A stretch of DNA of 64,000 nucleotides from the NCBI GenBank assembly GCA_000817105.1, contig JUEP01000007.1, positions 52,811 to 116,810 of the forward strand, written 5' to 3'. Source of the DNA: a marine actinobacterium MedAcidi-G3. Lineage in GTDB: Bacteria; Actinomycetota; Acidimicrobiia; Acidimicrobiales; Poriferisodalaceae. How positions within the stretch are numbered: position 1 is the stretch's first letter; each line of letters begins with the position of its first letter. A program made the position numbers and the translations under genes. Under the pieces are notes generated by a model. The model was not told the DNA's origin. It searched no databases and was given only the letters and a program-made list of their open reading frames with translations. Shown in pieces: positions 35,081 through 41,609 of the stretch.

Positions 35081-36259
35081 TTAGTTAACGGGGGCTAGAA
35101 CAATAGAGCCGTTGTGGCCGCCGAAACCGAATGAGTTCGACATTGAAGGCCCTGGTTCCCATTCCAAACCGCTACCAGTAACGATATTAAAACCAGCCAT
35201 TTCGGGGTCCCGATTCACGAAGCCAGCAGTAGGTGGTATCTGTTTGTGAAGGAATGACAATAGAACAGCCGTGGCTTCAATTGCTCCGGCTGCACCAAGA
35301 GCGTGTCCGGTTACTCCCTTAGTTGAAGTCACCGGCGGACCATCCTCGCCAAACAGTTTCGATAATGCTTCTGCCTCGGCTGCATCGTTCAACGGTGTGG
35401 AAGTCCCATGAGCGTTGACTGAGGCGATATCGGTGCTCGCCAGCCCAGAGTCTTCTATGGCTAGCTGCATGCAGCGAAGGGCGCCATCGCCGCCGGGAGC
35501 CGGTGCGGTTATGTGGTGTGCGTCAGCGGTCGATCCGGATCCAAGGACCTCTCCATAGATATTGGCTCCTCTAGATTGCGCCGAACTCATCTCTTCTAGA
35601 ACCAAAGTTGCAGAACCTTCGGTCATCATGAAGCCATCTCTATCTTTGTCAAAAGGCTTTGACTGGCCAGAAGAAGATAATGCTGTCATGTTTTGAAAGC
35701 CAGCCATGCCAACGGGCGACATAACAGACTCAGTTCCTCCGGAGACCACGACGTCCGCGTAGCCCATTTGGATTAAACGTGTTGCGTAACCAATTGCATG
35801 TGTGCTTGCAGCGCAAGCGGTGGTGATCGTCTCATTAGGGCCCTGCAGTCCGAAACGCATAGAGATGGCTGCGCCTGGAGCGTTGGGCATGATCATCGGA
35901 ACCATAAATGGAGAAACTCGGCGCTCTCCCTTCCGATCATGAACAAGAACCTGTTCCTCGAAGGTTTGAAGTCCCCCAACTCCGGTTGCGTAGATGACAC
36001 CGCATCGAGCAGGGTCGGAGCTGAGCTCGCCTGCATCCTCAAGCGCCATGGCAGCGGTTGCGGTGGCCATCTGCTGAGAACGGTCGGCCCGGCGGGCTTC
36101 TTTAGGGTTGTCGTAATAGGGGAGTGGGTCGAAATCGTGGACCCGGCGCTCACCTTCAGGCGCCGCCGAATTCAAGCCGTGCCAGAAAGCTTCGAGACCG
36201 GTGCCAGCGCAGGAAACGACCCCGAGGCCGACAATAGCTACCCTGCGCCGATCACTCAC
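35081..36259 (-). CDS. fabF: Beta-ketoacyl-ACP synthase II
   Basis: TACAASTHAIGYATRLIQMGYADVVVSGGTES, NAHGTSTPLNDAAEAEAL, STKGVTGHALGAAGAIEA, NSFGFGGHNGSIV. Confidence 0.96.
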   Translation of the reverse strand: MSDRRRVAIVGLGVVSCAGTGLEAFWHGLNSAAPEGERRVHDFDPLPYYDNPKEARRADRSQQMATATAAMALEDAGELSSDPARCGVIYATGVGGLQTFEEQVLVHDRKGERRVSPFMVPMIMPNAPGAAISMRFGLQGPNETITTACAASTHAIGYATRLIQMGYADVVVSGGTESVMSPVGMAGFQNMTALSSSGQSKPFDKDRDGFMMTEGSATLVLEEMSSAQSRGANIYGEVLGSGSTADAHHITAPAPGGDGALRCMQLAIEDSGLASTDIASVNAHGTSTPLNDAAEAEALSKLFGEDGPPVTSTKGVTGHALGAAGAIEATAVLLSFLHKQIPPTAGFVNRDPEMAGFNIVTGSGLEWEPGPSMSNSFGFGGHNGSIVLAPVN

Positions 36260-36489
36260 AGTTTCGACTCAACAAGAGTTACAGCGTCGCCCACGGTGGC
36301 TACGTCAGATAGCTCTTCTTCTTCGACAGTAATGTCGAACTCTTCTTCAAGAGCCATTACTAGCTCAACCAAGTCGAGGCTATCCGCGTCAAGATCATCG
36401 GCAAAGTTTGCTTCGGGGGTTACAGCGGATGCGTCTACTGCGAGTACCTCCACGGCACATTTTTTGAATCGCTCGAAGTTGTCACTCAT
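36256..36489 (-). CDS. acpP: Acyl carrier protein
   Basis: ANFADDLDADSLDLVELVMALEEEFDITVEEEEL with the DSL phosphopantetheine site. Confidence 0.95.
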   Translation of the reverse strand: MSDNFERFKKCAVEVLAVDASAVTPEANFADDLDADSLDLVELVMALEEEFDITVEEEELSDVATVGDAVTLVESKL

Positions 36490-36538
36490 TGAGGTGTTCC
36501 TTGTGTGATTGGACAATGCGAAGTGTAGATGAATTGAG

Positions 36539-37252
36539 TCAGTGGCCCATGCCAAGTCCGCCATCAATTGGGATTACAGCGCCCGTTACATAAGCAGCTG
36601 ATTCCGAAGCAAGAAAGGCGATCATCTCGGCAATTTCGTTTGGCAGCGCAGCTCGGCCCAATGGAACCTGGTCCTTAATAGCGTCTTGTTGCTCCTCAGT
36701 CAGAGAAGCAAACATTTCTGTCTCCACTGGACCCGGAGATACGACATTTGCGGTGATATTTCGAGAACCTAATTCTCTCGCCATAGATCTGGCCATACCG
36801 ATGAGCCCAGCTTTACTTGCCGCGTAGTTGACCTGGCCGGCTGACCCTAAGAGACCCACTACCGAGGAAACGAAAATCAGACGTCCCCAGCGAGCTCTGA
36901 GCATGGCTCGAGCTGCTCTTCGAGCCATGCGGTAAGACCCTGTCAAGTTGGTGTCTATAACGTCGGCGAAATCCTCATCAGACATGCGTAAAAGAAGTTG
37001 GTCACGGGTGATCCCAGCGTTGGCGATCAGCACTTCTACCGAGCCAAGGTGGGACTCGATTGACTCGAATGCTGTCTCGATGGCTTCTGAGTCTGTTTGG
37101 TCACAAGCGATTGACAAGATTCGGTCGTCGAAAGGTTCGGAACTTCGAGACGTAACAGCGACTCTGTGTCCCCGGTCGGCTAGCAATTGCGCTGAGGCTA
37201 GACCGATACCTCTGTTGCCTCCCGTGATAAGGATGGTCTTTGCCTCCGTCAT
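36539..37252 (-). CDS. fabG: 3-oxoacyl-ACP reductase
   Basis: ILITGGNRGIGLASAQLLADRGHRVAVTSR, NAGITRDQLLLRMSDEDFADVIDTNLTGSYRMAR, NYAASKAGLIGMARSMARELGSRNITANVVSPG. Confidence 0.94.
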   Translation of the reverse strand: MTEAKTILITGGNRGIGLASAQLLADRGHRVAVTSRSSEPFDDRILSIACDQTDSEAIETAFESIESHLGSVEVLIANAGITRDQLLLRMSDEDFADVIDTNLTGSYRMARRAARAMLRARWGRLIFVSSVVGLLGSAGQVNYAASKAGLIGMARSMARELGSRNITANVVSPGPVETEMFASLTEEQQDAIKDQVPLGRAALPNEIAEMIAFLASESAAYVTGAVIPIDGGLGMGH

Positions 37253-38193
37253 ACTCCATCCCAAGTCATGACGGCGGCGGCCGAAGTCATGCCCGCCCCA
37301 AAGCCAACGAGAAGAAGGTTGTCTCCCTGTTTGACTCGGCCTTGAGACCATGCATCTTCTAGAGCTAGTGGTATTGACGCAGAAGAAGTGTTGCCGGTTC
37401 TATGGATCACCATAGAGGTCTTCTCGTATGGAATTCCCAGACGCTTGCATGACGCCTCGACTATGCGCACATTCGCTTGATGAGGAACTACAAGGTCTAT
37501 GTCGTTGGGAGTGAGATTTGCCATCTCGAGGGACCGGTTAGCTGCGTTCTCCATAGCTAGTACCGCATTTTTGAAGATCACTTTTCCCGCCATCTCGATT
37601 TTTCCGTCAAAATCGCAAAACAGCGCATCTTCTAATGCCCCGTTGCTGTCGACATGCCAACCATGCAGATCTCCTGGGCCATCGGTTTTTTCGATGACTG
37701 CCGCACCTGCTCCGTCTGCAAAGAGTATGCAGGTGGTTCGATCAGTCCAGTCAGTAATTCGTGACAGAGTTTCAGCTCCTATCACTAATATTCGGTTGTG
37801 GCCCATTTGGATGAAGCCATGGGCGGCTATCAGGGCATACACGAATCCGGAACACGCAGCATTCAGATCCATAGCTCCACAACTCAGTCCGAGGAGTTCT
37901 TGAACAGTTGAAGCCGTGGCTGGCACTTGACGGTCTGGGCTAGTCGTAGCGAGGATGAGTAGGTCGATAGTTGAGGGATCAATACCTGACCGATCAATAG
38001 CCATTTGTGCAGCTTCGGCAGCGAGACCTGCGGTAGTTCCACCTATTCGACGTTCATGTACTCCGGAACGGTCGACAATCCACTGATGGTCGGTGTCTAC
38101 CATCTGTTCTAGGTCATGGTTGGTGACTACTTTGTCTGGCAATGCAGTTCCGATAGAGAGCATTCGGGCACCGGCTGTAAGTTTTGAAGTCAT
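37249..38193 (-). CDS. fabH: Beta-ketoacyl-ACP synthase III
   Basis: MLSIGTALPDKVVTNHDLEQMVDTDHQWIVDRSGVHERRIGG, AMDLNAACSGFVYAL, VVPHQANVRIVEA, HRTGNTSSASIPLAL. Confidence 0.96.
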   Translation of the reverse strand: MTSKLTAGARMLSIGTALPDKVVTNHDLEQMVDTDHQWIVDRSGVHERRIGGTTAGLAAEAAQMAIDRSGIDPSTIDLLILATTSPDRQVPATASTVQELLGLSCGAMDLNAACSGFVYALIAAHGFIQMGHNRILVIGAETLSRITDWTDRTTCILFADGAGAAVIEKTDGPGDLHGWHVDSNGALEDALFCDFDGKIEMAGKVIFKNAVLAMENAANRSLEMANLTPNDIDLVVPHQANVRIVEASCKRLGIPYEKTSMVIHRTGNTSSASIPLALEDAWSQGRVKQGDNLLLVGFGAGMTSAAAVMTWDGV

Positions 38194-38203
38194 TGCTGGT
38201 TAC

Positions 38204-39382
38204 TCACCTCGTCCGTAGCCATGCAATCGGCTGTCTGGCTGTTACCCGCTCGCTCTCCAACGCCATGAATTCCATGAGAATCCCGGCGAAAGGGGAGCGT
38301 ACTTCCTCTTCAGCTACCCATCCCACCACATCGCCCACATTAACTGGTTGTTTGTCGCTCAGATCTGGTTTGGGAACGAAGACTCCAGCGCAAGGGCTGA
38401 CAACCAAGCGTTCAGTTACATATAGGTGTTCCCCAGCTCCATTGTCGGTTTGCCCCAAAGACCCTAGGTCGGTGACGGCGGCCAAGAGAGTGTCTACATC
38501 TTGTGGTGTCGCCACTGACAACGTATTTGCGTCTTTTAGCGTGCGTTTAGCCATGCCTGTGAGGACAGTGCCAGGGCCCAGTTCGACGAATGTCGAGCAA
38601 CCCATTTCTTGGAGCCCATAGAGAGTTTGTCTCCACTGAACGGGACTACAGAGTTGGCTCGCTAAAAGTTGGGGCCACTCTTCAGCTTCTGTTCGAGCTG
38701 AGGCGTCGACGTTCGCTATTACTGGTATTGCAGGTGCCCGTACTTCGACTTCCGCTAACGCTTTACGCAAGCGATCTCTAGCCGGTGCCATAAACGGTGT
38801 GTGGAAAGCTCCTCCCACTGGAAGACCCATGGCTCTTTTGGCTCCGAGCTCCTTGGCTTTCTCACCCGCGTCTGTAACAGCGATCGGGGACCCTGCTATG
38901 ACGACCTGGCCTGGCGCGTTGTAATTGGCTACCCAAACGTCTCCGTCAACTCTTGCGCATGCTGTCACCACCAGATCGTCGTCTAAGCCGAGCACGGCGG
39001 CCATAGTCCCGTCTTGTTCGTCGGCCGCCACTTGCATTGCTTCGCCGCGTTCTGCAACGAGTCGGACTGCATCCTCAAAGGAAAGAGCCCCGCTTGCGCA
39101 AAGAGCGCTGTACTCACCTAAAGAGTGACCAGCTGTGAGGTTCGGGGCGACTCCGGTTCGCTCTACAGCATCTAGAACGACCATGCTCAGAACGAAAGTA
39201 GTTAGTTGGCTGTTTCTGGTTTGTTTAAGTTCCTCAGCGTCTGCATGAAGTAGTAGTTGGCTGACATCCCGTCCGCAGGCTTGAGAGGCTTCATCCACGA
39301 GTTCCCAACTTTCGTGATCCACCCACTCTGAACCCATTGAGGGTTTTTGTGAGCCTTGACCAGGAAATGTAAATGCAAGCAC
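38204..39382 (-). CDS. fabD: Malonyl-CoA:ACP transacylase with C-terminal barrel-sandwich-like domain
   Basis: AFTFPGQGSQKPSMG, GHSLGEYSALCASGALSFEDAVRLVAERGEAM, GGAFHTPFM; C-terminal extension VVSPCAGVFVPKPDLSDKQPVNVGDVVGWVAEEEVRSPFAGILMEFMALESERVTARQPIAWL. Confidence 0.95.
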   Translation of the reverse strand: MLAFTFPGQGSQKPSMGSEWVDHESWELVDEASQACGRDVSQLLLHADAEELKQTRNSQLTTFVLSMVVLDAVERTGVAPNLTAGHSLGEYSALCASGALSFEDAVRLVAERGEAMQVAADEQDGTMAAVLGLDDDLVVTACARVDGDVWVANYNAPGQVVIAGSPIAVTDAGEKAKELGAKRAMGLPVGGAFHTPFMAPARDRLRKALAEVEVRAPAIPVIANVDASARTEAEEWPQLLASQLCSPVQWRQTLYGLQEMGCSTFVELGPGTVLTGMAKRTLKDANTLSVATPQDVDTLLAAVTDLGSLGQTDNGAGEHLYVTERLVVSPCAGVFVPKPDLSDKQPVNVGDVVGWVAEEEVRSPFAGILMEFMALESERVTARQPIAWLRTR

Positions 39383-40613: not shown

Positions 40614-41609
40614 ATGACAGATCGAATAGACACCACGCGTCTGCAAGAAATGGCGCGGGCCTATACGGCATCTGCAGTGCTGTACGCCGCCTTAGACGTA
40701 GGACTTTTTACTCAGGTGAGTGAGGGATGTAGGACAGAAGACGCCTTAGTGGAAACAACTGGGCTGCGGGCGGTGGACGTTGACAGGCTTGTTTCTTGTG
40801 CCCTGAGTCTGGGTCTCCTCGATTGGAAGGACAACGAACTGTGGAATGCGCCTGATGTGGAGGCATACCTAGTTCAGGGGACAGATCGGTACGCAGGCCC
40901 TTGGATGATGTTTACTCGGCCCGATGTTCCTGGTTGGTTTCAGATGACGGAAAAGATGCGTGCCCCGGTTTCAACGAAACTTGGGATGTATGAGGATTTA
41001 ACTGTTGAGTCGGCACGCAAATATCACCAAGCGACTTCAAGTATCGGCTTTGGTGCGGCTAGGCGGTTTGTGCGCTCGGTCGATTTGTCTAACCGAAAAC
41101 ACTTACTTGATCTTGGAGGTGGGTCGGGTGCCTACAGCATTACTTGTGTCGAGCAGTTTGAGGGGCTTAGAGCGACTGTGCTTGATTTACCTCCAGTTGT
41201 CATTGCGACTCAGGAATATATAAATGATGCCGGGGTTGAAGACCGCGTGACGACGATAGGAGCAGATTTCACCCGAGGTGAATTCCCCTCACCCGTGGAC
41301 GTGGTGGTCATGGCGAGCAACTTGCCTATCTATAACAGAGAGGTAATTGGAGACGTAGTTGGTCGGGCTTTTCGAGCTCTGGAGTCAGGTGGCGAAATGC
41401 ACCTGATTGGCGAGATGATGGATAACGACCGTAAAGGACCAGTTGATGCTGCGATGTGGGGCATGAACGAATTAATTTGTGGTAGCGAAGGTCGCGCTCA
41501 CACTCGCGATGAATGTAAGGGCTACTTCAGTTCTGCTGGGTTTATTGACGTCGAGGTAACGGACTTCGTGGCGGGCACGCTTGTCCGCTGTGTTGGTACA
41601 AAGCCTTAG
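40614..41609 (+). CDS. Methyltransferase with N-terminal dimerisation domain (O-methyltransferase family 2-like)
   Basis: ARAYTASAVLYAALDVGLFTQVSEG, HLLDLGGGSGAYSITCVEQFEGLRATVLDLPPVV, FRALESGGEMHLIGEMM. Confidence 0.88.
   Translation: MTDRIDTTRLQEMARAYTASAVLYAALDVGLFTQVSEGCRTEDALVETTGLRAVDVDRLVSCALSLGLLDWKDNELWNAPDVEAYLVQGTDRYAGPWMMFTRPDVPGWFQMTEKMRAPVSTKLGMYEDLTVESARKYHQATSSIGFGAARRFVRSVDLSNRKHLLDLGGGSGAYSITCVEQFEGLRATVLDLPPVVIATQEYINDAGVEDRVTTIGADFTRGEFPSPVDVVVMASNLPIYNREVIGDVVGRAFRALESGGEMHLIGEMMDNDRKGPVDAAMWGMNELICGSEGRAHTRDECKGYFSSAGFIDVEVTDFVAGTLVRCVGTKP

Follow-up and report, generated by a model that had tools for sequence, protein, structure and literature searches.

A small barrel-sandwich domain of the biotinyl type, here called BSH, is a component of its own in the type II fatty acid synthesis (FAS) operon of actinobacteria, where it occurs either as a separate gene or fused to the C terminus of the malonyl-CoA:ACP transacylase FabD. 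The combined evidence suggests that it is a previously undescribed docking part between the enzymes that make malonyl-CoA and those that use it. The window, that is, the whole stretch of 64,000 nucleotides analyzed from the marine actinobacterium MedAcidi-G3 (contig JUEP01000007.1, positions 52,811 to 116,810), carries the operon on its minus strand in the order fabD-fabH-fabG-acpP-fabF, with the following features.

38204..39382, minus strand: fabD, 392 amino acids, GTG start; malonyl-CoA:ACP transacylase core plus C-terminal BSH domain (TIGR00128, 297.2 bits)
38477..39382, minus strand: FabD malonyltransferase core, residues 1-302, with the GHSLGEY nucleophile motif and GGAFHTP
38435..38476, minus strand: variable linker, residues 303-316, poorly conserved, pLDDT <50 at 310-318
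38207..38434, minus strand: barrel-sandwich (pseudo-biotinyl) domain, residues 317-392, from conserved residues, AlphaFold2, Foldseek, and VIA-align
38303..38314, minus strand: BSH tip AEEE, residues 357-360, shortened where BCCP has its AMKM biotinylation site; no lysine
37249..38193, minus strand: fabH (KASIII), the next operon gene after fabD
36539..37252, minus strand: fabG (ketoreductase)
36256..36492, minus strand: acpP (acyl carrier protein)
35081..36259, minus strand: fabF (KASII); unlike in most relatives with a separate BSH gene, no carboxyltransferase gene follows it in this genome

The catalytic part of this FabD is ordinary, as the initial annotation had held. The full-length protein scores 297.2 bits against TIGR00128, above the curated cutoff of 260.9 bits, which places it in the family together with ordinary FabDs (PDB 1mla, 2qc3, and 1nm2), and S87, the serine of GHSLGEY, and the active-site H194 are each retained in at least 90% of 47 fused FabDs. 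Its length of 392 amino acids with BSH contrasts with that of the solved stand-alone FabDs listed, mostly 281 to 339 amino acids, none of which aligns in the PDB sequence search to the BSH region, the last ~75 residues. The extension had been placed at residues 325 to 392 (38204 to 38410), which agrees with the reading frame at 38204..39382 on the minus strand. The full-length model (pLDDT 92) drops below 50 at residues 310 to 318, which are predicted to be disordered, and the linker between core and BSH is, on this model, a flexible tether. Across the fused proteins, the mean top-residue frequency is 0.67 in the BSH domain, 0.69 in the FabD core, and 0.37 in the linker; dS was saturated in this comparison, so no dN/dS is given. 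Chance resemblance was rejected as an explanation of the extension, since it is kept in >100 genomes and conserved as much as the FabD core.

Single-sequence searches did not reveal what the extension is: alone it matched no Pfam family, including PF00364, and a PDB sequence search with the window protein alone yielded nothing useful for this region, so profiles were needed. The AlphaFold2 model built with 64 homologues (pLDDT 93.3) is an all-beta barrel-sandwich whose top Foldseek matches are biotin carboxyl carrier proteins (BCCPs). VIA-align superimposes it on Escherichia coli BCCP (4hr7_G) with a Z score of 11.1 and an rmsd of 1.0 over 67 residues; other BCCPs score similarly, with efflux adaptors close behind. 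Searched against PDB, the BSH profile matched the methylmalonyl-CoA decarboxylase gamma chain (2.5e-6) and E. coli BCCP (about 1e-3), and 53 of the 64 aligned homologous BSH domains matched PF00364 (Biotin_lipoyl; best, 3.2e-6), indicating that BSH is homologous to biotinyl domains and not merely alike in fold. The proposal of a biotinyl-type barrel-sandwich domain at the FabD C terminus is thus borne out, and the identity of BSH is solid.

BSH nevertheless differs from the BCCP/AccB biotinyl domain (PF00364; 1bdo, 4hr7, and 5gua), with which it shares the fold and recognizable sequence homology: it lacks the AMKM lysine, its tip is shortened or rewritten, it is fused to FabD or adjoins it, and it adds conserved GExL..ER, GER, and QPxAWLR motifs. 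Its near-invariant residues are G317, E318, E324, R325, G333, F365, G367, E378, R379, Q384, P385, A387, W388, and L389, among which G317, E318, E324, R325, R379, and W388 are unexpected for an ordinary biotinyl domain. As we read the model, most of these residues would lie in the first or last strand or close to it, away from the tip and nearest the linker. The best single NCBIfam match of the window BSH is YqeB (TIGR03309; 6.9e-6), at 25.7 bits against a cutoff of 220, well outside that family; the C-terminal region of YqeB is apparently another unmodified barrel-sandwich segment, in a different protein and pathway.

The tip without a modifiable lysine, AEEE at residues 357 to 360, had been recognized from the start, and it proved to be general. 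In an alignment with true carriers, the modification column holds no lysine in any of 177 distinct BSH domains, and these domains contain only about 0.55 lysine each. Separate BSH copies have a full-length tip (e.g., GPGTSTP), and fused copies have the shortened one. Biotinylation of BSH was rejected for lack of a lysine at the site, and biotinylation or lipoylation at some unusual residue, a thought that the homology to biotinyl domains invites, is so strongly disfavored by the same counts as to be highly improbable. The genome itself encodes five ordinary carriers with EAMKM or ESMKM motifs and eight carboxyltransferases. With five normal carriers present, BSH is not the AccB of this cell, and the idea that it substitutes for AccB was rejected as well. 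Loci L127 and L278 were left out of the BSH set because they encode genuine AccB, with an MK tip and AccC alongside. A lysine-less biotinyl-like domain in genome G538 (L285, 375-566) lies between partial AccC and carboxyltransferase matches and is possibly a degenerate AccB within an acc operon.

Far from being absent in close relatives, the extension is present in most FabDs of the source organism's order. Elsewhere in Acidimicrobiia, and in several further lineages of actinobacteria, BSH is a separate gene of ~90 amino acids between fabD and fabH; Ferrithrix thermotolerans, Ferrimicrobium, and Ilumatobacter are among the named genomes with BSH matches. Hence, the initial description of BSH as a FabD extension was right in that the domain is fused and conserved in relatives, but it was incomplete, since in many actinobacterial lineages the domain is also a free-standing gene. 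Where FabD and BSH were found at the same locus, BSH, fused or separate, nearly always stands between the FabD core and FabH, and in 106 of 110 loci FabG follows FabH and precedes ACP; acpP (36256-36492, minus strand) lies in the same operon as the window fabD, as initially annotated. FabDs without BSH comprise extra paralogues, the small-genome family f23, and those of many other actinobacteria. The FabD genes without extension at L223 to L226 are, in family f16, second copies in genomes that have a fused FabD elsewhere. Locus L240 was rejected as a fabD-BSH locus because it apparently holds a FabD-like gene of another kind, next to a ketosynthase and lacking BSH.

Three families of one other order (f115, f122, and f129) depart from this arrangement. 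Their BSH gene is generally outside the fabD operon, in the order BSH-fabH-acpP-fabF-carboxyltransferase, with fabD elsewhere or divergent, and their BSH proteins lack the N-terminal GE..ER motif. The absence of this motif where BSH is outside the fabD operon suggests that FabD, not the carboxylase, may be the partner of the motif.

A tree of FabD cores (119 rows) shows that the fused state changed at least three times on starred, well-supported branches, namely, in a large Acidimicrobiia clade, family f104, and genome G539. Three separate fusions are the simplest reading, with change counts alone not separating gain from loss.

The gene neighborhoods of part of the BSH family point toward acetyl-CoA carboxylase. 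In Acidimicrobiia loci with a separate BSH gene, a biotin-dependent carboxyltransferase gene usually closes the operon. Counting separate loci only where at least 350 bp follow fabF, the carboxyltransferase is found after fabF in 39 of 50 separate loci versus 0 of 48 fused ones, a count that includes near-duplicate genomes and in which the fused loci come mainly from one clade, so that a P value computed from it would be unreliable as it stands. At three loci, L298 (G607), L304 (G720), and L146 (G287), the BSH gene immediately precedes a carboxyltransferase gene, and no FAS gene was recognized beside it. Several separate-BSH loci outside Acidimicrobiia have no carboxyltransferase within ~0.5 to 0.7 kb of fabF, and among the loci compared the fabD-BSH-fabH position is more widely shared than linkage to a carboxyltransferase. 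Other actinobacteria also have FAS genes alongside carboxyltransferase genes, so the association between BSH and carboxyltransferase may in part reflect no more than the shared pathway.

Our preferred reading, held tentatively and at a little under an even chance, is that BSH is a nonbiotinylated pseudo-BCCP acting as a docking module that joins FabD and FabH to acetyl-CoA carboxylase. Its conserved face would bind a fixed partner while BSH itself would be noncatalytic, and the flexible linker would let FabD work while tethered. The favored partner is acetyl-CoA carboxylase, whose carboxyltransferase and biotin carboxylase normally receive a biotinyl domain; newly made malonyl-CoA could then be handed to FabD and FabH. 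The initial annotation had named ACP and acetyl-CoA carboxylase alike as possible docking partners; the carboxylase gains support from gene neighborhoods, but ACP is not favored, since BSH, with a mean net charge of -3.3 in fused and -2.3 in separate copies, is acidic like ACP. A bolder version, in which BSH is a widespread undescribed subunit of actinobacterial type II FAS, a dead biotin-carrier domain that links acetyl-CoA carboxylase with malonyl transfer and lets hand-over take place inside a complex instead of by diffusion, is possible but rather doubtful.

A precedent comes from plant plastids, where BADC proteins, nonbiotinylated BCCP homologues, assemble acetyl-CoA carboxylase (PMC11926652). 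Like BSH, which has no biotinylation motif, BADCs are BCCP-like and nonbiotinylated, and their role is linked to the making of malonyl-CoA for fatty acids (PMC11926652). They differ in being plant proteins of a separate lineage with an N-terminal region of their own and without fusion to FabD, and in that BADC binds BCCP and biotin carboxylase (PMC11926652), whereas the carboxylase link of BSH is proposed from gene context.

BADC has also been viewed as inhibitory, and BSH might accordingly regulate acetyl-CoA carboxylase by competing with the true biotin carrier, thereby tying carboxylase activity to expression of the FAS operon, with the fusion to FabD incidental or adding feedback. The lysine-less BCCP-like fold, the adjacency to carboxyltransferase genes, and the BADC precedent (PMC11926652) all fit such a regulator, yet repeated fusion to FabD would bring a freely competing protein little advantage, and the loop at the tip, the part inserted into carboxylase active sites, shows poor conservation and is shorter in fused copies; we consider this role unlikely. 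The greater generality of the fabD-BSH-fabH order over carboxyltransferase linkage, and the retention of the BSH gene with fabH when fabD is elsewhere, would instead suit a domain whose docking partners are confined to FAS (FabH or ACP) and that organizes a FabD-FabH initiation module without any link to acetyl-CoA carboxylase. This is about as improbable as the regulator, since the net negative charge speaks against a basic ACP-docking surface, and in G607, G720, and G287 BSH adjoins a carboxyltransferase where no FAS gene was recognized.

Less probable still is that BSH is a structural part of FabD, serving stability, oligomerization, or as a lid, with no outside partner. Such a part would be expected to fuse with FabD repeatedly and to keep its conserved residues where BSH has them, in the first and last strands on the linker side; the linker, however, is variable and predicted to be disordered, and free-standing BSH genes exist, some of them far from fabD.

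Neither the FabD-BSH architecture nor the small BSH gene was found described in the literature searched, which omits most subscription papers; automatic annotations at superfamily level may exist. For a large environmental group, FabD can no longer be pictured as an enzyme of one domain, and BSH becomes a candidate bacterial parallel to the plant BADC proteins. To our knowledge, there is little direct evidence on whether acetyl-CoA carboxylase physically cooperates with fatty acid synthase in bacteria. BSH, conserved, encoded between fabD and fabH, apparently joined to FabD more than once, and set before a carboxyltransferase in some genomes, makes cooperation of the two directly testable, with proteins that are small and easily expressed.

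Within the MedAcidi-G3 genome, the carboxyltransferase that most resembles the one closing the Acidimicrobiia operon is encoded at G000:C15 (L311 7285-9614), where a LysR regulator gene overlaps the carboxyltransferase reading frame and a likely citrate synthase gene adjoins. Near the FAS operon, the window also carries an O-methyltransferase-type (PF00891) gene at 40614-41609 on the plus strand.
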